From a virus, in the IMG/VR virus record IMGVR_UViG_3300043773_001503, positions 1 through 34,190 of that record: DNA of 34,190 bases. The stretch is one strand, 5' to 3'. A program made the position numbers and the translations under genes. Positions 4,513-26,058 of the stretch are shown here, piece after piece. The notes below the pieces were generated by a model, which ran no database searches, was not told the origin of the DNA, and saw only the letters and a list, made by a program, of their open reading frames with translations. How positions within the stretch are numbered: the stretch's first letter is position 1; each line of letters begins with the position of its first letter.

Positions 4513-4710
4513 ATGAGCGAAGAAGTGCGCGAGGCGATCGAATCCACGGCGACCGGCCCCAAGCGGGTACGCACGGATGCCGGGGAAGTCGAGTCGCAGG
4601 ACATTTCCAAGCAGATTGAGGCGGATAAGTATTTGGCCGCGCGGGCTGCGGCCGGCACAAAGTCGCGCGGCCTGCGGTTCAACAAACTCATTCCGCCGGG
4701 GTCTGTCTAG
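4513..4710 (+). CDS. Small head-region protein, possible gpW-position protein (65 aa)
   Basis: A 65-aa acidic and helical protein (MSEEVREAIESTATGPKRVR... ending FNKLIPPGSV) directly before the portal gene. Its TAG stop overlaps the portal GTG by one base (TAGTG). In lambda this slot is held by gpW, the head-tail joining protein, but the sequence itself does not show a gpW domain that I recognise. Translation appears leaderless or nearly so, 8 nt behind the TAGCCT hexamer. A head assembly role is inferred from position. Confidence 0.6.
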   Translation: MSEEVREAIESTATGPKRVRTDAGEVESQDISKQIEADKYLAARAAAGTKSRGLRFNKLIPPGSV

Positions 4711-6140
4711 TGGGAATGCTTTCGCGCATGTTCGGCACGAAGCGGGCGCGGGTTGCGGCGCCGCCCGCTCGCGTGCGCGCCGGATTCGATGCGGAGGCAT
4801 CGACCGACGATCATCGGCACTGGGCGAATGCCGATTACCTTTCGATGGACGGGGCGCTAACCCCGCTGAAGCGGGCGCGCATGCGCAACCGCGCCCGCTA
4901 TGAGCGGATGAACAATTCGTATTTGGCCGGCATCGCGGAAACGCTCGCGGTTGATTTGGTGGGAACCGGGCCGCGGCTGCAACTCACCACCGGCTCACCC
5001 GAAGCCGATCGCGAAGTCGAAAAGCGCTTTTTCGATGATATGTGGCGGATCGACCTCCCCGGCAAACTCCGCACGATGCGGCAAGCGCGTCTAATCGACG
5101 GCGAAGCCTTCGCGCAGATGTTCACCAACCCGGCGCTTGACGGGGTGCAACTCGACGTTCGGCTCATCGAAGCCGAAATGGTCGCCACGCCGCTCGGCAT
5201 GGATGAGGGAGTAACGCCCGAAGGTTCCGCCGTCGATGGTCTGGAGTTTGACGCGGCCGGCAACGTGATTGCCTATCGCGTGCTGCGCTACCATCCCGGT
5301 TCCAACTGGTACACCGCGGCCACCGATTTCACGCGCGTAGACGCGCGAAACATGGTGCATTGGTTCAACCGCATCCGCCCGCAGCAAAACCGCGGGATGC
5401 CGGAAATCGCCCCTTCGCTGCGGCTGTTCGCCAACCTGCGCCGCTACACCGAAGCCACGATTGCCGCCGCGGAAACCGCGGCCGACCTCGCCGCGTTCAT
5501 TCATTCGAACAGCCCCGCCGCGGAAGTGGACGAGGTTACGCCGTTCGAATCGATGGACATTGAAAAGCGGTCGCTTGTCACCCTGCCGGAAGGGTGGAGC
5601 GTGTCGCAGTTGAAGGCCGAACAGCCGACGAACACCTATAGCGCCTTCAAGCGCGAAATCGTTGGCGAGATTGGCCGCAGCGTGGGCCTGCCGTTCAACA
5701 TGGCCGCGCTTGATTCGTCTTCCTACAACTACGCATCCGGCCGGATGGATTCGACCATCCATATCGCGAACACGCGGGTTATGCGCGACGAACTGGAGCG
5801 CATTTGTCTCGACCGCGTGTTCCTCGCGTGGCTGGACGAAGCCGCCCTAATCGAAGGCATGATTCCCGCCGGTCTTCCGCCGATCGCGGAATGGCAATGG
5901 GCATGGGTGTGGGACGGGCGAGAACACGTTGATCCGGCGAAGGAAGCCACCGCAACCGAAATCCGGCTGCGCACGAACACCACAACGCTTGCCGCCGAAT
6001 ACGCGAAGGCCGGCAAAAACTGGGAATCGGAACTGCGGCAGCGGGCCGCGGAAATCGCGCTCCAGCGGGAACTAGGGCTGCCGGAAGTGCCGGCCGCCGC
6101 GCCGACCGCGCAGCCTCAACAGGACACGCAAGACGCATGA
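4710..6140 (+). CDS. Portal protein (lambda gpB family)
   Basis: A 476-aa portal that forms the dodecameric DNA gate at the head vertex. The segment NNSYLAGIAETLAVDLVGTG (about residues 70-89) matches the start of the lambda-type portal domain. Further typical segments are RLIEAEMV, RNMVHWFNR, RPQQNRGMP and the central SYNYASGRMDS. The C-terminus is an Ala/Pro/Gln-rich tail. The GTG at 4710 overlaps the previous stop; ATG at 4716 is an alternative. The stop TGA overlaps the ATG of the protease-capsid gene (ATGA), indicating translational coupling in the head operon. Confidence 0.92.
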   Translation: MGMLSRMFGTKRARVAAPPARVRAGFDAEASTDDHRHWANADYLSMDGALTPLKRARMRNRARYERMNNSYLAGIAETLAVDLVGTGPRLQLTTGSPEADREVEKRFFDDMWRIDLPGKLRTMRQARLIDGEAFAQMFTNPALDGVQLDVRLIEAEMVATPLGMDEGVTPEGSAVDGLEFDAAGNVIAYRVLRYHPGSNWYTAATDFTRVDARNMVHWFNRIRPQQNRGMPEIAPSLRLFANLRRYTEATIAAAETAADLAAFIHSNSPAAEVDEVTPFESMDIEKRSLVTLPEGWSVSQLKAEQPTNTYSAFKREIVGEIGRSVGLPFNMAALDSSSYNYASGRMDSTIHIANTRVMRDELERICLDRVFLAWLDEAALIEGMIPAGLPPIAEWQWAWVWDGREHVDPAKEATATEIRLRTNTTTLAAEYAKAGKNWESELRQRAAEIALQRELGLPEVPAAAPTAQPQQDTQDA

Positions 6141-7978
6141 AAACGAAGGTTTGTTTTTCGGAAATGCCGGTTGAGTTCATCGCGGCTGCCGATGCCCCGG
6201 AGGGTGAGGGGGCTTCGGCCGGCCCGCGGAAGGTTCGCATTGTCGCCTACACGGGCGGCGCGATCCGGCAAGCGTGGTCGCGGGAGCCGATCGTCATTGA
6301 CCTTGCCGGCATGAAACTGCGGCAGCAAATCCCGATCGTGCTGGGCCACGATTACGCGCTCGGTTCCATTCTTGGGCAGACCACCGCGAACAGCGTGGAA
6401 GGCGGGCAGTTGATTGTGAATGCCGAAATGCTGGCTTCCACCGATAGCGCCGGCCGCGTTCTTGAATTGGCCGACAAGGGCTTTCGGTGGCAGGCATCGA
6501 TCGGCGCCGACGTGTCGCGCCATGAGCGCATCCCGGCCGACCAAACCGTAACCGTGAACGGGCAAGCCTTCCACGGCCCGATCCGAATCGTCAAAGCCTC
6601 GACGTTGCGCGAGGTTTCTTTCGTTACCCTTGGCGCGGATGACGCAACCGCCGTGCAGATTGCCGCAGACGCGGAGGAAACAACTATGGCGCACGACGCC
6701 AACGATACGCCCGTTGAGCCGATTTCGGCCGCAACGGAAGCCCCGGCGACGGTCGCCGTGGAGGTTCCCACCATCACCGCGAAGGCCGACGATTCCGCCG
6801 ACCTTAAGGCCGCGGTGGCTGCCCTTACGGAGAAGGTTGAAACCATGCAGAAGTTGCAGGCCACGCGCGAGAGTCGCGCCCCGGCTGTTCATGTTGTGGC
6901 CGATGCGGTCGATAACGGCCGCGTGGTCGAGGCGGCGCTGTGCTTGCAGGCTGGGCTTCCGAATGCCGACAAGGCTTTCGATGCCCGCACGCTTGAGGCG
7001 GCCGACAAGATCAAGCGCACGGTTTCGCTCGGCGAGGTTTTTGTCGAGGCTGCCCGCGCGAACGGCTACAACGGTTCGCACCGGATCAGCGCGTCCAACC
7101 TCCCGATGGTGATTCGGGCCGCCTTCGCCACGCACGCGATTTCCGACATTCTGTCGGCCGTCGCGAACAAGTTCCTCCTCTCCGGTTTCAACGCCGTGGA
7201 GCGGACTTGGGATTCCGTGTCGCAGACGCGCAGCGTTTCCGACCTGAAGGCTATCAACCTGTTCCGCCTCAACGGTTCGTTTAAGTTTTCCAAGGTGGGG
7301 AACGGCGGCGAACTGAAGTCGGCCGATGCGAGCGATAGCAAGCGGTCAGTTTCGGCGGATACCTACGGGGTCACGTCGAGCATCACCCGCACCGACCTCA
7401 TCAATGATGACATGAACGCGCTCAGCGCGGTCACGTCCAAAATTGGGAGAGGGGCGGCCCTTGCGATGAACGACGTGATTTGGGGTGAGTTCCAGAGCGG
7501 CAACAGCACGTTCTACAGCAAGGCCACGGCGGGCGCCGGTAATGCCCTGTCGCTGACCTCGCTGAAGGCTGCGGCTACTGCCTATCGGAAACTCACCGAT
7601 CCCGATGGCAACCCGCTCGGCATCGCGCCGCGCGTTCTTCTGGTTCCGCCGGAACTGGAGTTGACCGCTGCGGAGATGATGAGTTCGTCGCTCCTCATCA
7701 GCGGCAACACCACCGCGCAGGGTAACGCCAACGTTCTCGCCGGTCGGTATCGCGTGGTTTCGTCCGCGTATCTCTCCAGCGCCTCGACGTGGTGGCTGTG
7801 TGCGGATGCGGCCGACCTCCCCGCGATGGATGTTGTGTTCCTCAACGGTCAGCAGGCGCCGACCATTGAACAAGTGGAGGCCGACGCTTCCGTGCTGGGC
7901 GTGACCCTCCGCGGCTACATGGATTTCGGTTGTGCCAAGGGCGAGAGCCTCGCGGCCTACCGCATGGCGACCGCTTGA
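6137..7978 (+). CDS. Fused prohead protease and major capsid protein
   Basis: A 613-aa polyprotein. Residues 1 to ~180 look like a phage prohead serine protease: VLGHDY gives the catalytic His (71), WQASIGA the Ser (121), and LREVSFVTLGAD the conserved closing strand. Residues ~184-245 are acidic, Ala/Val-rich and end in a coiled helix (LKAAVAALTEKVETMQKL), as expected of a scaffold or delta domain. The rest (~250-613) looks like an HK97-fold capsid protein of the Mu gpT-like type (LGEVFVEAARANGYNG, SITRTDLINDDMNAL, RVLLVPPELE). It is usually two or three separate genes. An internal in-frame ATG (6686) with a strong Shine-Dalgarno could yield scaffold-capsid alone. The terminator-like hairpin at 7996 follows. 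Confidence 0.88.
   Translation: MKTKVCFSEMPVEFIAAADAPEGEGASAGPRKVRIVAYTGGAIRQAWSREPIVIDLAGMKLRQQIPIVLGHDYALGSILGQTTANSVEGGQLIVNAEMLASTDSAGRVLELADKGFRWQASIGADVSRHERIPADQTVTVNGQAFHGPIRIVKASTLREVSFVTLGADDATAVQIAADAEETTMAHDANDTPVEPISAATEAPATVAVEVPTITAKADDSADLKAAVAALTEKVETMQKLQATRESRAPAVHVVADAVDNGRVVEAALCLQAGLPNADKAFDARTLEAADKIKRTVSLGEVFVEAARANGYNGSHRISASNLPMVIRAAFATHAISDILSAVANKFLLSGFNAVERTWDSVSQTRSVSDLKAINLFRLNGSFKFSKVGNGGELKSADASDSKRSVSADTYGVTSSITRTDLINDDMNALSAVTSKIGRGAALAMNDVIWGEFQSGNSTFYSKATAGAGNALSLTSLKAAATAYRKLTDPDGNPLGIAPRVLLVPPELELTAAEMMSSSLLISGNTTAQGNANVLAGRYRVVSSAYLSSASTWWLCADAADLPAMDVVFLNGQQAPTIEQVEADASVLGVTLRGYMDFGCAKGESLAAYRMATA
6673..6688 (+). promoter_or_regulatory. Internal ribosome binding site and start inside the protease-capsid gene
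   Basis: GGAGG (6673-6677) lies 8 nt before the in-frame ATG 6686-6688, which is codon 184. This is the exact junction between the protease domain and the acidic scaffold-like linker. The geometry is better than at most gene starts in the window. A second product of 430 aa (scaffold plus capsid) would be made in excess of the protease fusion, as with the nested C/Nu3 genes of lambda. Confidence 0.62.
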
Positions 7979-7995
7979 GTGTGATTCGAAACGTA

Positions 7996-8029
7996 GCCAC
8001 CGCGGCGGCATAGGCGCCGCCGCGGTGGC
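7996..8029 (+). terminator. Strong hairpin after capsid gene (attenuator/terminator-like)
   Basis: GCCACCGCGGCGGC and GCCGCCGCGGTGGC form a perfect 14-bp stem with a 6-nt loop, starting 18 nt after the capsid stop codon. No T tract follows, so it may be an inefficient terminator or an mRNA 3'-end stabiliser for the abundant capsid transcript. The next gene starts 41 nt beyond. Confidence 0.55.
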
Positions 8030-8069
8030 ATGACTAACCAAAACCGAAACCGTAGAAAGAGGTTTTTCA

Positions 8070-8393
8070 ATGGCTGCGTTCAAGCAGGATGGCGACAAGT
8101 GGGATTACACGCCTAGTTCGGCTGTTGCCGTGGGCGACGTTGTGGCGCTGAATGACACGATTGCCGTGGCCGATCGCCCGATTGCGGCGAACGCGCTCGG
8201 TGCCGTGGCCGTCGAGGGGGTTTTCGAACTGCCCAAGGCTTCGGGTGCGATCGGTCAGGGTGCCGTGGTGTATTGGGATTCGACCAATTCCAACGTGACC
8301 ACCACCAGCAGCGGCAACAAGCGCGCCGGCAAGGCCGCCGCCGCCGCCGCCAGCGCCGACACGGTTGTGCGTGTCGCGCTGAACATGGGTTGA
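8070..8393 (+). CDS. Capsid cement/decoration-type protein (DUF2190-like)
   Basis: A 107-aa beta-rich protein. The pattern 'DKWDYTPSSAVAVGDVVALND', then 'VAVEGVFELPK', 'IGQGAVVYWD' and a C-terminal Ala run followed by 'VVRVALNMG', fits DUF2190-type proteins found next to capsid genes and thought to stabilise capsids. AGAGG about 9 nt before the ATG is the Shine-Dalgarno. Position directly after the major capsid gene corresponds to lambda gpD. Confidence in the family is good; the cement role comes from related phages. Confidence 0.8.
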   Translation: MAAFKQDGDKWDYTPSSAVAVGDVVALNDTIAVADRPIAANALGAVAVEGVFELPKASGAIGQGAVVYWDSTNSNVTTTSSGNKRAGKAAAAAASADTVVRVALNMG

Positions 8394-8854: not shown

Positions 8855-9832
8855 ATGCCGTTCTATTCGATCGCCCCCGGTTGTCTGTTGGTCGAGGCCG
8901 CGAACGCGGCAGCGTTCCCGGCCACCGGCGCCGCCAACACCATCTACATCGCGCAGGATACTAACACGCTCTACCGCTGGACGGGGAGCGCTTATGTGGT
9001 GGTCAGCGCCTCCCCGGAGGAGGTTATCGAAGCGGCGAACCTCGCCGCGTTCCCGGCGACCGGCGAGGCCGGCAAACTGTACGTTGCGGCAGATACCGGG
9101 CTTGCCTATCGATGGACGGGGACTGTTTATGTCGAGGTGAGCGCGGCCCCCGTGCAAAGCGTGGCCGGCAAAACCGGCGCGGTGACGCTCGCGAAAAGCG
9201 ACGTTGGCCTAGGCAATGTGGACAACACAGCAGATGCAGACAAGCCGATCTCTACAGCAACGCAATCGGCCCTAGACGGCAAGGCTGCCGCATCGCACAC
9301 GCACGCGGCCGGCGACATTACTAGCGGCACGGTTGCCGCCGCGAGGCTCGGGAGCGGAACGGCCGATGCTACTACGTTCCTTCGCGGGGATGGAACGTGG
9401 GCCGCCGCCGGATCGACAAACGCGAGCGATTTAACTAGCGGCACGCTGGCCGCGGCCCGAATCGGCGCCCATGCGTCAAGCCACCAGACAGGCGGCAGCG
9501 ATGCCGTGTCGCCGGTTGTGGTCACGCCGGCCGCGCTGTCGGCCTCGCAGAATGACTACACGCCGGGGGTGTGCGACCTGTTGCGGCTTTCGTCCAGCAC
9601 GGCCGTCGATATTACGGGGCTGGCCGCCGGCGCCGTAGACGGCGCGCTGCGGCTACTGGTCAACGTCAACGCCAGCGGTGGCGCGGCGATCACGCTCAAA
9701 CATGAATCCGCGTCCAGCACGGCCGCAAATCGGTTCCGCAATGCCACGGGCGGCGATTACATCTTGGCGGCCGATGGCGGCTCCGCGGTGCTGACCTACT
9801 CCACGGCCATTAGCCGGTGGCGGATTCTATGA
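8855..9832 (+). CDS. Phage fibre protein with duplicated N-terminal domain
   Basis: A 325-aa fibre-like protein. Two ~45-residue repeats open it, each with an EAAN.AAFPATG motif, a .YxAxDT segment, Y/RWTG and YVxVSA. Next is the classic side-fibre signature VAGKTGAVTLAKSDVGLGNV, then 'DKPISTATQSAL' and 'HTHAAGDITSGTVAAARL' with 'TFLRGDGTW', all typical of trimeric tail or head fibres. The C-terminal third is a beta-rich tip (KHESASS, NRFRNATGGDYILAADG). The final ATGA overlaps the next gene. It is located between head and tail genes rather than after the tape measure, so it may decorate the capsid or neck. Confidence 0.82.
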   Translation: MPFYSIAPGCLLVEAANAAAFPATGAANTIYIAQDTNTLYRWTGSAYVVVSASPEEVIEAANLAAFPATGEAGKLYVAADTGLAYRWTGTVYVEVSAAPVQSVAGKTGAVTLAKSDVGLGNVDNTADADKPISTATQSALDGKAAASHTHAAGDITSGTVAAARLGSGTADATTFLRGDGTWAAAGSTNASDLTSGTLAAARIGAHASSHQTGGSDAVSPVVVTPAALSASQNDYTPGVCDLLRLSSSTAVDITGLAAGAVDGALRLLVNVNASGGAAITLKHESASSTAANRFRNATGGDYILAADGGSAVLTYSTAISRWRIL

Positions 9833-12597
9833 GCCGATGGCAAACGGCAATCACCAAAGCGAAGCAGTTTGACCCGCGCTCCGTTCCGGGGCTTGCGCTT
9901 TGGCTTGATGGCGGCGACACGCAATCGCTTTACACCACCGACGCAGGGCCGGTTGTGGCCGTGGCGTCACCGCTGGACATTAGCGGGTGCGTGGGGTGGT
10001 GGGATGCGAGCGATGCGGCCACGCTCAAGCAAAACAGCAACGGCACGACGGCGGCGAGTGCCGCCAACGATCCGGTTGGATATTGGGCCGACAAATCACC
10101 AAGCGCATTCAATGTCATTCAGTCAACGGCAGGCGCGCGGCCGCTGTATCGGCCAACGGGCATCAACGGCTTGCCGTCTGTCTTGTTTGATGGATCGAAC
10201 GATGTGCTGCGAGTGACGCCTGCAACTCCGGTTGGCGCCGCTGGCGTCACGGTGTTTTCGGTGTTTAGCGTTGTGACTGCCGGAACGTATGTTTTGCCGC
10301 CGCTACTTTTGGGTTCCGGCCCAAACGCTCGCCCCTACGATAGATACCAATCGGCGGGCAGCAACATCGTCAGCATCGGGAGCGCGTCTGCATCGGCATC
10401 GCTTCCATTGCGAACACAAACATCGCCGTTTATTCATTCAATGACCGTCCAGAAAGACGGCGCATCGACCGGCGTTCATAGGTTTCAAGAGTTTGCAAAT
10501 GGTGCCGGCTACGGCACGATCGACATAACTTCGACCTACTCGACGGCATCGCAGGTGATTGGCATCGGCGCTCGCGCAGACGGCGCGACTGTGCTGAACG
10601 CTCATGTTGCCGAAATCATTTTGTTCGACGGCGTGTTGTCGAGTGCCGATCGGTCGCGGGTCGAAGCCTACCTAGCCGCAAAATGGGGCATCGCTAACGT
10701 CCACGCGCAGGCGACCACCTCAAGCGCGCCGGTGGGCTATTGGGCCGACAAGAGCGGCAACGGTCGGCACGCCACGCAATCCACGGCGGGCAATCGCGTG
10801 GAGCGCGTCGCAAGCGACCTTGCCGGGCGCGCAACGTTACGCACCTACGGGGCAACGTCTTCGATGGCTGTTGCCGCGTGGCCTTACACGGCAGCGAACA
10901 CGGCCGTGTTTGTGTTTCGCGGCTCGGCCCTCAATCAAGGTATTTACCGGCGCGGCGGATTGAACAATGGGCCGCGGTCGGCATTGCAGGGGTCGCCATC
11001 TGTCACGCTTCGAACGACAATTCACGGCACGTCAAGCACGCAAATCAGCGCGCTGGCTGGCTATCCGCTAAACCAGTGGGCAGTAGGCGCGAGCATTGTT
11101 TCTGGCAGTTCCGTGCGCGCTTACGCGAACGGTATTTATTCGACGCAAGAGAACTACACCGGAGCGCTGTCGGGCAATTTTGATGCGCAATTGTTTGCGC
11201 TGAATAGTTCGGGGTTGTATCCGCTCAACGGCGGCATTGCGGAGTTTTTGTATTACGATCGCGAACTGAGCGCCGCCGAACTTGCCCGCGTTGCTGGCTA
11301 TTTGTCGGCGAAATGGAGGCTGCCGCTTGCGCCGCAAGTAAGCAACGCCGATGCGCAAGATTGGGTCAACCGCGTTTATGCCAACGGCGGCACAGTATCG
11401 GCCAGCACGGCGAGCGCGGTGAATACGTTTTGCAATGCCATCGACGCCGCCGGCATCCGCGATCGGTTCTATCGTTTGGGCATTTTCGCGGGGTCGAATC
11501 TTTCCGCCGCGCTGGTGCCGCTCTACCTAACTCCAGACAAGACAGTAACGAACCTGTTTCAGTTTGGCACCGACATGACCAACGCCGCATGGAGCGGCGG
11601 CGGAAACGGGAATGTTACCCGCGCCGTGTCTGCGGAGGCCGGGCCTTTGGGCTACGGGCGGGCAACCAAAATGACAACGCCCGCCGCCCCGTATGACTTC
11701 CGGCAACTGTACCAGTTTTTGCCGGCGACCGGCGCGCAGGTCACTGTTTCTGTGTGGATGAAAACCAACAGCGGCACAAAACAGATTCAGTGGCTTGCCG
11801 GCAACGCATATTCCGACACGGCTACGGTCACGACAACATGGACGCGCTTTACAAAGACTTTCACGCTGCCAACTTCCGGCGACACGCGAACGGGGATTTC
11901 CACCGTTTCGGAACTCAACGAGACTAGCCATATCCTCGCGTGGGGGATGCAGGCCGAATACGGGTCAACGGCGACCGCATACAACCAGCCGCGATACGGG
12001 AACCTAACCGATACGAATAACAATTTCGTGAACTCCGACTACACGGAAACAGGTTCCGCCGGCGGGCTTACTCCATTTGCTACTAATGCAAAGTGGCTGA
12101 ACACGGGTTTGAGTTTGGACACGCTGCCAATACTCGCCACGGGCCACCTTTCCGCGTATCGCGCTGCACATACCGGCACCGATGGGCAAATGATCGGCCT
12201 ACGAAACGCTGCGGGCGACCAACTCTACCGCCTCTACCATCGCGGTGGCGCTTCTCAACGCGGCGACGGGTTTTGGGGCGGCGGCGCTGCCGCCATCACT
12301 ACAGACAACAACGGCGTTGCCGGCTCGCAGATTGTGTCGCGCACTTCAGCGACAAGCGCCAAGGTTTTTACCAACGGAAGCGCCACCGCGACATTAGCCA
12401 CCAGCATTACGCCGGCATCTGTCGCGCGAAGTTTTCATGTGTTCGCAGACAACGATGGCAACGCCACACCAACCTCGCGATGGTTTGTCGGCGTTGCGCT
12501 TAGGGCGTATAGCATCGGCGACGGACTCACAGACGCGCAAGCGCTGTCGTTCCACAACGCACTAACAGCCTTTCAGGCATCGCTAGGTAGAGCATGA
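9829..12597 (+). CDS. Large LamG/concanavalin-like fibre or adhesin protein
   Basis: A 922-aa protein with tandem lectin-like (concanavalin A/LamG) modules. Module signatures occur twice: 'WWDASDAATL...PVGYWADKS...QSTAG' with 'LPSVLFDGSNDVL', then 'PVGYWADKSGNGRHATQSTAG'. Each module closes with an E-[IF]-L-[FY]-[FY]-D-x-x-L-S helix and the AKWxx segment. A further jelly-roll-like carbohydrate-binding region (around residues 590-730) contains VTVSVWMKTNSGTKQIQW, followed by a third beta domain. The start ATG overlaps the previous stop. The stretch is visibly less GC-rich than its neighbours, suggesting separate acquisition. Likely binds surface glycans; its tropism role is inference. Confidence 0.82.
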   Translation: MSRWQTAITKAKQFDPRSVPGLALWLDGGDTQSLYTTDAGPVVAVASPLDISGCVGWWDASDAATLKQNSNGTTAASAANDPVGYWADKSPSAFNVIQSTAGARPLYRPTGINGLPSVLFDGSNDVLRVTPATPVGAAGVTVFSVFSVVTAGTYVLPPLLLGSGPNARPYDRYQSAGSNIVSIGSASASASLPLRTQTSPFIHSMTVQKDGASTGVHRFQEFANGAGYGTIDITSTYSTASQVIGIGARADGATVLNAHVAEIILFDGVLSSADRSRVEAYLAAKWGIANVHAQATTSSAPVGYWADKSGNGRHATQSTAGNRVERVASDLAGRATLRTYGATSSMAVAAWPYTAANTAVFVFRGSALNQGIYRRGGLNNGPRSALQGSPSVTLRTTIHGTSSTQISALAGYPLNQWAVGASIVSGSSVRAYANGIYSTQENYTGALSGNFDAQLFALNSSGLYPLNGGIAEFLYYDRELSAAELARVAGYLSAKWRLPLAPQVSNADAQDWVNRVYANGGTVSASTASAVNTFCNAIDAAGIRDRFYRLGIFAGSNLSAALVPLYLTPDKTVTNLFQFGTDMTNAAWSGGGNGNVTRAVSAEAGPLGYGRATKMTTPAAPYDFRQLYQFLPATGAQVTVSVWMKTNSGTKQIQWLAGNAYSDTATVTTTWTRFTKTFTLPTSGDTRTGISTVSELNETSHILAWGMQAEYGSTATAYNQPRYGNLTDTNNNFVNSDYTETGSAGGLTPFATNAKWLNTGLSLDTLPILATGHLSAYRAAHTGTDGQMIGLRNAAGDQLYRLYHRGGASQRGDGFWGGGAAAITTDNNGVAGSQIVSRTSATSAKVFTNGSATATLATSITPASVARSFHVFADNDGNATPTSRWFVGVALRAYSIGDGLTDAQALSFHNALTAFQASLGRA

Positions 12598-12914: not shown

Positions 12915-13358
12915 ATGGCTTCCCCCCTTCTCGCCATCTGTGACGCGCTCGCCGCCTCCCTCAATGCGTCGGCGCTGGAAATCGCAGGCACCACCGTACA
13001 TCGGCGGAACTGGGCCACCGTGTCGGCGGAAGAAATGTCGCAGCCCGTGGTCTTCGTGACCCCCGGCGGCATCCAATCGGAGCGCATCGGCCGCACGCAA
13101 CACCAGACCGATTACACGGCCAACGTGTTCATTGGCAGGCACGTTACCGCGGAAGCCGATGCCGATGGAATGCTCGACCTCGCGGAAGAAATCCTAACGC
13201 TGGTGCGGGCGCACAACTGGCCGGCCCCGTGGCCTTACGCCGTGACCTCGCCGATTTCCGCGGCTATCGAAATCAACCCGGACGATGCGCTAGACGAGCG
13301 CAACGTATGGCGGGCCGTGGTCAGCGCGACCTACCGCATCTGCACGACGGATACCTAG
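12915..13358 (+). CDS. Putative tail terminator protein
   Basis: A 147-aa protein (MASPLLAICDALAASLNASAL) with the layout of lambda gpU-like tail terminators: an N-terminal amphipathic helix, then a strand with 'VVFVTPGG', a YTANVFIG strand, a helix (DLAEEILTLVRAHN) and the C-terminal 'NVWRAVVSATYRI' strand. GGAGG lies 8 nt before the ATG. It is followed after 1 nt by the GTG of the joining protein gene. Function is inferred from fold-like pattern and position before the tail-tube genes. Confidence 0.66.
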   Translation: MASPLLAICDALAASLNASALEIAGTTVHRRNWATVSAEEMSQPVVFVTPGGIQSERIGRTQHQTDYTANVFIGRHVTAEADADGMLDLAEEILTLVRAHNWPAPWPYAVTSPISAAIEINPDDALDERNVWRAVVSATYRICTTDT

Positions 13359-24136: not shown

Positions 24137-24415
24137 ATGGCACGCACGCGGGCTATCTACGTTAACGGCGCCCGGTGGACGATCCGCCATTGCCGCGTGC
24201 CAAAAACGATTCACGGCGATTGTGACTACAACACGCGCACGATTCGCATTTCCAACAAACTGCACGGGGAAGATTTTCTAAACGTGTTGGTGCATGAATG
24301 GATTCATGCGCGCTGGCCGGATTTCTCCGAATCGGTGGTATCGGAATCCGCCGACGAACTGGCCGCCGTCATTCACGCTTACCGCTTCCGCCAGCCCGAC
24401 GAGCAAGAGGACTAA
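24137..24415 (+). CDS. HExxH putative zinc metallopeptidase (92 aa)
   Basis: A 92-aa protein with a clear zinc-protease helix, NVLVHEWIHARWPDFSE (HEWIH at residues 53-57), and a downstream acidic helix 'SESADELAAVIHAYRF' that could give the third zinc ligand (SprT/ImmA-like layout). The N-terminal part is two or three strands (YVNGARWTIRHCR, TRTIRISNKL). It has no secretion signal, so it probably acts in the cytoplasm or on virion proteins. The start at 24137 is chosen because it follows the -10-like TATAAC by seven bases; earlier in-frame ATGs lie within the preceding gene. It overlaps the next gene by TAATG. Confidence 0.75.
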   Translation: MARTRAIYVNGARWTIRHCRVPKTIHGDCDYNTRTIRISNKLHGEDFLNVLVHEWIHARWPDFSESVVSESADELAAVIHAYRFRQPDEQED

Positions 24416-25407
24416 TGCCGCTCGACCCGATCCAACGCATGGCGCGGAACATCATCGCGCGGCATCCAGACCATCCCGCGCGATCGATCGCGCGGGCATT
24501 GGTCGCGAAGTGCAAGGGGGCGATTACGCTGGACGCGGCACGCTCGCGGGTGCGCCGCGAACTGTCGGCGAACTATGCGAACGGCCGCAAGGCGCCGGCG
24601 TTCAAGCGGGCGCCGCGGGCTGCCGGCGAAACGCTCGCGCCGCCCGTGTCGATCGCAAAACCGTGGTTGCGGTTTGAGTTTCCGGCGGCCGGCCCTATCG
24701 GCATCCTGTCGGATATTCACATTCCCTACCATTCCAATTCCGCGCTTGCCGCAGCAATCGCCACGCTCAAGCGCGACAAGGTGCGCGGCATCCTCATCAA
24801 CGGGGATGCGGTCGATTTCTATTCCATTTCGCGGTGGGAGAAAAACCCCGCGGAGCGCGATTTCAAGCGCGAACTACAACAGGCCCGCGAGTTTTTCGCG
24901 TGGCTGCGGCAAGAGTTCCGCCGCATCCCAATCGTGCTAAAGACCGGAAACCATGAGGAACGTTGGTCGCATTGGCTTTTTCAGCACGCGCCCGAAATAT
25001 CCGATATGCCGGAAATGGGATTGGATAACTGGCTGCATTTAAAGCAACACGGCATCGATCTAGTCGAGGATCAGCGGCCCGTGATGCTGGGGAAACTCAC
25101 CGTGCTGCACGGTCACGAACTGCCGCGGCAACTAGCCTCCCCGGTGAACGCTGCACGCGGCGCGTGGGTGCGCACGAAAACGACGGTTCTAGTTGGGCAT
25201 CATCACCGCACCAGCGGTCACAGCGAGCCGAATATGTGGCATGAGGAAACGTTTTCGTGGTCGTGTGGCTGCCTTGCTGACCTCACCCCGGCCTATTCGG
25301 TTATCAACTCTTGGAATCATGGATTCGCCATTTGCGACGTTGCCGCGGATGGGTCTTTCGACGTTCACAATTACCGCATCGCAGACGGCGCGGTGCGGTC
25401 TTCGTAA
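24415..25407 (+). CDS. Metallophosphoesterase (calcineurin-like)
   Basis: A 330-aa protein with the full metallophosphoesterase motif set: LSDIHIPYH (D100, H102), INGDAVDF (D131), KTGNHEER (178-183), HGHE (232-235) and GHHHRTSGH (261-269). Residues ~10-60 form a helix-turn-helix-like N-terminal segment (SIARALVAKC...LDAARSRVRREL) often seen in phage members of this family. The substrate is not predictable; DNA or nucleotide phosphodiesters are plausible. TAATG coupling to the HExxH gene suggests they are co-expressed. No membrane segment. Confidence 0.86.
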   Translation: MPLDPIQRMARNIIARHPDHPARSIARALVAKCKGAITLDAARSRVRRELSANYANGRKAPAFKRAPRAAGETLAPPVSIAKPWLRFEFPAAGPIGILSDIHIPYHSNSALAAAIATLKRDKVRGILINGDAVDFYSISRWEKNPAERDFKRELQQAREFFAWLRQEFRRIPIVLKTGNHEERWSHWLFQHAPEISDMPEMGLDNWLHLKQHGIDLVEDQRPVMLGKLTVLHGHELPRQLASPVNAARGAWVRTKTTVLVGHHHRTSGHSEPNMWHEETFSWSCGCLADLTPAYSVINSWNHGFAICDVAADGSFDVHNYRIADGAVRSS

Positions 25408-25412
25408 TTGAT

Positions 25413-25440
25413 TTGCGCCAGCCGGCGGGCCGTGGATAAT
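25413..25440 (+). promoter_or_regulatory. Candidate promoter, TTGCGC-N16-GATAAT
   Basis: TTGCGC (25413-25418), a 16-bp spacer and GATAAT (25435-25440) lie in the 42-bp gap before the ATG at 25450, whose upstream lacks a Shine-Dalgarno. The predicted transcript would begin only about three bases before the ATG. It is unrelated in its left box to the CCAYAGACC set. Confidence 0.4.
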
Positions 25441-25449
25441 GGCAACGCC

Positions 25450-26058
25450 ATGAACCTTTCGAATGAATACTTCGCGCAGGCAAAGCAGCGGGCGCTCCGG
25501 TTTTGCGGATGCCTAGACGCGGGAACGTCTGGCACGCTCGCCGCCGATGTGCTGCGGCTACTCGCCTATATCGATGCCATGAAAAAGGAAACGCCACCCA
25601 TGCAAACCGACACGCCGGCCGGCATTGCCCCGAACGTTGCCGAAGCCGCAGCCGACACGCACCCCGCGGATTGGATTCTGCGCGGGGATCGGGAATTGCG
25701 TAGCCAGCGGTGCAGCCAGCCGGCCCCGGCCCCGGCCCGGCTGTTGGGCGACGGGATCGCCGCCGCGGGCGGCACCGAAAGCCACGCGGAACGGCTGTTG
25801 CGCACCGCGGCCGACACGACGCGCGAACGGCGGGCGAACTACTCGCCGCCGCGGGAGCATTTCGCGCGAACCGTTGGCGCCATCAACGCGATTTTCTCCG
25901 ACAAACTCCGCGAGCCGTTCACGCCCGCCGATTGGGCGCTCATCATGATTTTGGACAAGTGCGCGCGGCACCAAGGCGACCGCAAAACCGCGGATTCAAT
26001 CGTGGATATAGCGGGCTACGCTGGCTGCCTTGCCGAATGCGAAACCGACGAACCATAG
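25450..26058 (+). CDS. DUF6378-like phage protein (202 aa)
   Basis: A 202-aa protein. The C-terminal ~90 residues (ERRANYSPPREHFARTVGAI, then 'FTPADWALIMILDKCARHQG' and 'DSIVDIAGYAGCLAE') match the DUF6378 pattern that I recall from phage genomes, including the closing D-I-A-G-Y helix. The N-terminal ~50 residues are helical with 'FCGCLDAG', followed by a low-complexity Ala/Pro linker. The start at 25450 has no Shine-Dalgarno; an in-frame ATG at 25600 preceded by AAAAAGGA could give a shorter 152-aa form. The stop TAG is embedded in the CCATAGACC motif at 26053. Function unknown. Confidence 0.7.
   Translation: MNLSNEYFAQAKQRALRFCGCLDAGTSGTLAADVLRLLAYIDAMKKETPPMQTDTPAGIAPNVAEAAADTHPADWILRGDRELRSQRCSQPAPAPARLLGDGIAAAGGTESHAERLLRTAADTTRERRANYSPPREHFARTVGAINAIFSDKLREPFTPADWALIMILDKCARHQGDRKTADSIVDIAGYAGCLAECETDEP

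Follow-up and report, generated by a model that had tools for sequence, protein, structure and literature searches.

The protease-scaffold-capsid fusion gene of the phage genome studied here (IMG/VR virus record IMGVR_UViG_3300043773_001503; the window is the whole stretch of 34,190 nucleotides analysed) very probably gives rise to two in-frame products, i.e., a minority protease-scaffold-capsid protein and a majority scaffold-capsid protein that would start at an internal ATG; translation, product ratio, co-assembly and cleavage site are all inferred. Two products are the most likely outcome because almost all relatives, as well as further phage families that have this fusion, share the internal start together with its Shine-Dalgarno (SD) sequence.

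The fusion gene opens with an ATG that overlaps the stop codon of the portal gene as ATGA, which suggests coupled translation of the full-length product (Table 1). A sequence-only reading of the window had taken the gene as protease, linker and capsid in one frame, and profiles, structure model and fold matches bear this out. The AlphaFold2 model, computed from an alignment of 63 sequences (mean pLDDT 77.4), replaced a 15-sequence model that was too poor to use (pLDDT 45); it comprises a folded protease to about residue 165, disorder over residues 166–219, including Met184, a helix at 221–246, a disordered stretch at 247–258, and then the capsid. Structure prediction of the three segments, which the earlier reading had proposed as a check, thus returns a protease, a disordered-plus-helical linker and an HK97-fold capsid.

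Table 1 Predicted features of the fusion gene and its neighbors in the window
Feature	Position	Strand	Evidence
Lambda-type portal	4710..6140	+	PF05136 1.4e-53; TGA overlaps 6137 ATG (ATGA)
Protease-scaffold-capsid fusion gene, full-length product	6137..7978	+	613 aa; NF045541 E 2.8e-70, residues 31–602
Prohead protease domain, residues 1–165 (S78 / T4 gp21-like)	6137..6631	+	Fold match 5jbl; PF04586
His71 codon, predicted catalytic	6347..6349	+	Invariant in 63 sequences
Ser121 codon, predicted catalytic	6497..6499	+	Invariant in 63 sequences
Glu159 codon, predicted third triad member	6611..6613	+	Invariant in 63 sequences
Internal Shine-Dalgarno GGAGG	6673..6677	+	Anti-SD energy -9.5; conserved in relatives
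Nested frame, scaffold (delta-like) plus capsid	6686..7978	+	430 aa, MAHDAND...; ATG kept in 98/105, with SD in 97/105
Scaffold/delta-like segment, residues 184–247	6686..6877	+	AlphaFold2: disordered, then helix 221–246
Candidate maturation cleavage linker, residues 244–252 (RESRAPAVH)	6866..6892	+	R244 63/63, R247 62/63
HK97-fold major capsid domain, about residues 260–613	6914..7975	+	PF25209; fold matches
Head decoration / cement protein	8070..8393	+	PF09956 1.4e-26

The protease model (residues 1–166) superimposes on T4 gp21 (PDB code 5jbl) with a Z score of 13.4 and an rmsd of 2.9 for 143 aligned residues, and PF04586 (gathering score 21) scores 19.5 bits against the whole protein and 21.4 bits (E 3e-4) against residues 1–183. 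His71 and Ser121 had been numbered correctly in the sequence-only reading, and the spacing of His71, Ser121 and Glu159 is similar to that of the HK97 protease triad. The invariance of all three residues in the 63 sequences argues that the long product is also maintained, i.e., selected as a protease, just as conservation of the SD-ATG pair argues for selection of the short one. The linker, described earlier as acidic and coiled, is indeed net acidic over residues 184–258, but is modeled as disordered to about residue 219 and as helical only thereafter. For the capsid, the likeness to Mu gpT holds in that PF10124 is matched (4e-11); the better match, however, is PF25209, Phage_capsid_4 (5e-36, 125.7 bits against a cut-off of 27), and the fold aligns with HK97 (PDB code 1ohg) with a Z score of 13.6 over 225 residues and with encapsulins with a Z score of 15. 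Arg244 and Arg247 are retained even though the stretch 244–252 is largely predicted to be disordered, and this linker is, judged by its conservation, probably the best candidate site for scaffold removal.

Elsewhere in the window, a 926-residue protein that combines LamG-like and carbohydrate-binding-like domains with a GTA head-spike-fiber domain is encoded just downstream of the head genes (9817–12597). A 147-residue ORF without PHROG match (12915–13358) is preceded by a GGAGG that ranks among the strongest SD sequences of the window (-9.3), and possibly encodes another abundant structural protein. Adjoining metallophosphoesterase-like and phosphofructokinase-like ORFs follow the tail genes (24298–26058).

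The internal ATG (6686–6688) lies in frame, 183 codons downstream of the 6137 start, and is separated from the GGAGG by 8 nt; these positions, as well as the 430-residue product beginning with MAHDAND, agree with what had been read before. Its predicted anti-SD energy of -9.5 compares with -3.7 at the 6137 start, and the internal SD ranks with the strongest of those that precede likely gene starts in the window. Predicted mRNA structure is weakened only slightly near the internal ATG and was given no weight as evidence. In 72% of 99 relatives, the internal SD is stronger than the best N-terminal candidate; in some (e.g., L018, L019 and L058) the N-terminal SD is equal or stronger, and the ratio need therefore not favor the short form everywhere.

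Relatives were drawn from viral contigs and genome bins, the latter mostly of Planctomycetota, and protease and capsid share one frame in 123 of 131 loci. After removal of identical capsid ends, 105 fusions with identities down to about 32% were aligned, and an SD was counted if its energy was -5 kcal/mol or lower. The sequence-only reading had named loss of the GGAGG-ATG pair from relatives as an outcome that would speak against it; the column of Met184 holds ATG in 98 and ATG with SD in 97 of the 105 fusions. At any other column, ATG with SD occurs in at most 34 of the 105, and only 11% of the other in-frame ATGs in these genes (n = 1129) are preceded by an SD. Six fusions that lack Met184 (L024, L108, L110, L113, L121 and L122) carry a GTG 3–5 codons later with an SD of its own (GGAG or AGGAG), so that a start with SD is found in 103 of the 105 fusions if GTG within five codons is allowed; the exceptions are L100, which has the ATG and a weak SD, and L128, which is without any start. 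Since one of the six search peptides spans the internal start, conservation was recomputed on the loci retrieved by capsid-only peptides, 82 of 89 of which have ATG and SD at the Met184 column.

Split-gene relatives usable as a natural control were absent among the loci retrieved: L127 is a lone capsid with no protease detected, and L129, L132 and L133 appear to have undergone truncation or rearrangement. The stand-alone capsid homolog (L127:1574-2812) may stem from a prophage in decay or from a shell that has been domesticated. In L133 (1337–3193), a Planctomycetota contig, the portal (...LNMPF) is joined in frame to the capsid (SIDRRDLINDD), a chimera that may be a deletion or an assembly artefact. 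The closest cellular homologs (L105–L133, from genome_contigs) are almost all found in Planctomycetota MAGs, and on this ground the phage probably infects Planctomycetota.

The nested start is not confined to relatives of the window. In ClpP-type fusions (the mEp460/Gifsy-2/MD8 group), ATG and SD fall at one column in 65 of 65 sequences, most of which in the mEp460 set are more than 75% identical and so do not amount to 65 independent cases. ATG with SD is likewise present in all 15 sequences of the Shewanella 1/44-type and Vibrio group, and Rhodobacter RcC-type fusions have the ATG at one column in 73 of 73, with a strong SD in 55 (about 75%). The Bordetella-type fusions, which are more diverse and have a ragged linker, yield 60 of 66 with a wide window and, as a tighter figure, 71% against 7%. 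With windows of equal length, ATG with SD is found at the junction in 100% (ClpP), 100% (Shewanella), 75% (RcC) and 71% (Bordetella-type) of sequences, compared with 10%, 5%, 8% and 7%, respectively, in control windows elsewhere in the same genes. Rhodococcus phage RRH1 has an ATG with an AAGGA-type SD at its protease/scaffold junction and stays a single case, as a search of viral_contigs gave no further RRH1 relatives. In Lactococcus phage c2, codon 131 of gene l5 is an SD-preceded internal ATG; the record of a c2-like phage (eb1) annotates the capsid CDS from exactly this codon, and the Pfam lactococcal capsid model begins at residue 131 as well. Two further observations concern these groups. 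ClpP-type fusions have, about 35 residues ahead of the main nested start, a second Met that is preceded by an SD (...EETWM in MD8 and Gifsy-2; residue 185 in L137 and 186 in L141), and a gene for a GroES-like co-chaperonin lies a few genes downstream of the capsid in fusion-bearing Vibrio and Shewanella phages (L134, L135 and L140).

On the comparative evidence, the internal start is kept as nucleotides rather than as residues. Positions 182, 183 and 187 are each without any residue above 32%, while M184 stands at 93%, and the predicted N-termini of the nested product vary widely (MAHDAN, MEDKEV, MDFTTW, MPTTTP, MTTATN). When the upstream peptide is held fixed and codons are redrawn according to the usage of each gene, the mean SD energy is -5.1 kcal/mol, compared with -7.3 kcal/mol observed (60 unique sites; Wilcoxon p 4e-11, uncorrected for relatedness and hence inflated by the non-independence of the sequences). 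The SD thus arises in part from the Glu-Glu codons as such, and codon choice makes it stronger. These data bear on the proposal that Met184 and the preceding Glu pair are kept for protein reasons, such as processing of the linker by the protease, with the SD arising incidentally from GAG GAG. Conservation of Glu180 and Glu181 is fair, and the mean of -5.1 kcal/mol follows from the amino acids by themselves, yet codon choice goes beyond the synonymous null and the six relatives without Met keep a start and SD at a shifted position, which makes this the least probable of the alternatives, with hardly any weight left to it.

A marginally better, but still very poor, chance is given to a separate internal transcript from which the capsid-only product would be made, as for herpesvirus UL26.5; the SD would then be used on this separate mRNA. 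Such a transcript would yield the same two products and would itself need the internal SD; a scan of 6000–8100 found no sigma-70-like promoter, host- or phage-specific promoters lying outside its scope. Somewhat less improbable, though still unlikely, is a full-length fusion as the only product, in which the three parts are present 1:1:1, proteolysis solves the stoichiometry and the internal ATG is incidental. Most of the sequence records examined treat such fusions as single products, as do the fusion papers in the passages found, where one gene with three domains is described and a second start is not mentioned (PMC8508860, PMC7302621); moreover, a mature N-terminus of the c2 type arises by cleavage whatever the start. 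A single product, however, leaves unexplained why start codon and SD persist through amino-acid divergence, why the shifted GTG starts come with their own SD, and why fusions with unrelated types of protease share the arrangement at this junction.

The two-product reading, by comparison, suggests the following course of events. Weak initiation at 6137, where ribosomes that have passed the portal stop probably re-initiate, would provide the minority protease-scaffold-capsid protein, while ribosomes loaded by the strong internal GGAGG would start at 6686 and produce the more abundant scaffold-capsid protein, the counterpart of HK97 gp5 including the delta domain. Long and short forms would co-assemble through their shared scaffold and capsid segments, and the prohead would thereby incorporate the protease in low copy number. 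Once assembly is complete, the protease would cut the scaffold away, probably at the Arg linker (residues 244–252), and in doing so release itself and leave the mature capsid.

A full fusion would force one protease per capsid subunit, a proportion several-fold above that in phages with separate genes; conservation of a nested start accounts for the ability of such genes to function. We lean, by a little, toward the more general view that every functional protease-scaffold-capsid fusion of tailed phages, of S78 or ClpP type, requires nested initiation at the protease/scaffold border; the fusions would then really be two overlapping genes, arisen more than once, and nearly all annotations would omit the second and most abundant product, the true capsid precursor. 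From the nested start, the actual capsid precursor and its first codon are predicted for hundreds of genomes in which a long 'head maturation protease' is at present the only annotation.

Comparative sequence evidence strongly supports the earlier proposal of two products, with the corrections that the fusion is not unusual and that a nested start is classical, as in lambda C/Nu3. Protease-scaffold-capsid fusions are named in NCBIfam, i.e., NF045541 and NF045540 (prohead, or ClpP-like, protease fused to major capsid protein). The window has the domain order of NF045541, protease then capsid in one frame, and the profile spans nearly the whole protein; its score of 237.6 bits, however, lies below the curated cut-off (525) and places it outside the defined family. 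Members carry the same nested start as the window, whereas the family name suggests a single product. Papers describe fusions with this domain order for phages of Microbacterium, Pseudomonas, Rhodobacter and Paracoccus (PMC7302621, PMC8508860, PMC8601537, PMC6536676), and for the actinophage groups EE, AN, AX, FE, CW, DM and RRH1 (PMC7302621); the latter share the three-part order of the window, but have very small genomes and little sequence similarity to it. Both the fusion and a nested start of the lambda C/Nu3 kind are thus already known. On the sequence comparison, the extension of the nested product through the capsid would be new, as would the role of its start as a near-constant, standard part of such fusions; the open-access literature searched contained no report of an internal start in protease-capsid fusions, and an earlier report elsewhere is possible.

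In lambda, an in-frame internal start separates the protease-scaffold product gpC from the scaffold-only product Nu3 (Shaw & Murialdo 1980, as cited in PMC8508860). The window resembles lambda in that a conserved internal start, in frame and preceded by an SD, is predicted from sequence where protease and scaffold meet; in lambda, however, capsid E is encoded by a separate gene, while the nested product of the window includes the capsid. The lambda protease has a ClpP/S49-like fold, in contrast to the predicted S78 fold in the window. Herpesvirus UL26 and UL26.5 are nested in-frame protease-scaffold and scaffold-only products comparable with those of the window, but the shorter one comes from a separate internal transcript and the capsid lies outside the fusion, which in the window includes it. 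Gene l5 of phage c2, annotated in its record as a head maturation protease fused to capsid, has an internal ATG with SD as the window does, although its capsid belongs to a different family (PF06673). The mature capsid begins at codon 206 according to a note in the record, after an Arg, like the candidate Arg linker of the window, and the segment between nested start and this point is of similar length (75 residues, compared with about 64 from Met184 to the Arg linker). The HK97 delta domain, at 102 residues (PMC8508860), is longer. Protease and capsid folds both match those of HK97, and the nested product corresponds to gp5 (delta-capsid); in HK97, however, the gp4 protease and gp5 are encoded by separate genes, whereas the window combines them in one.
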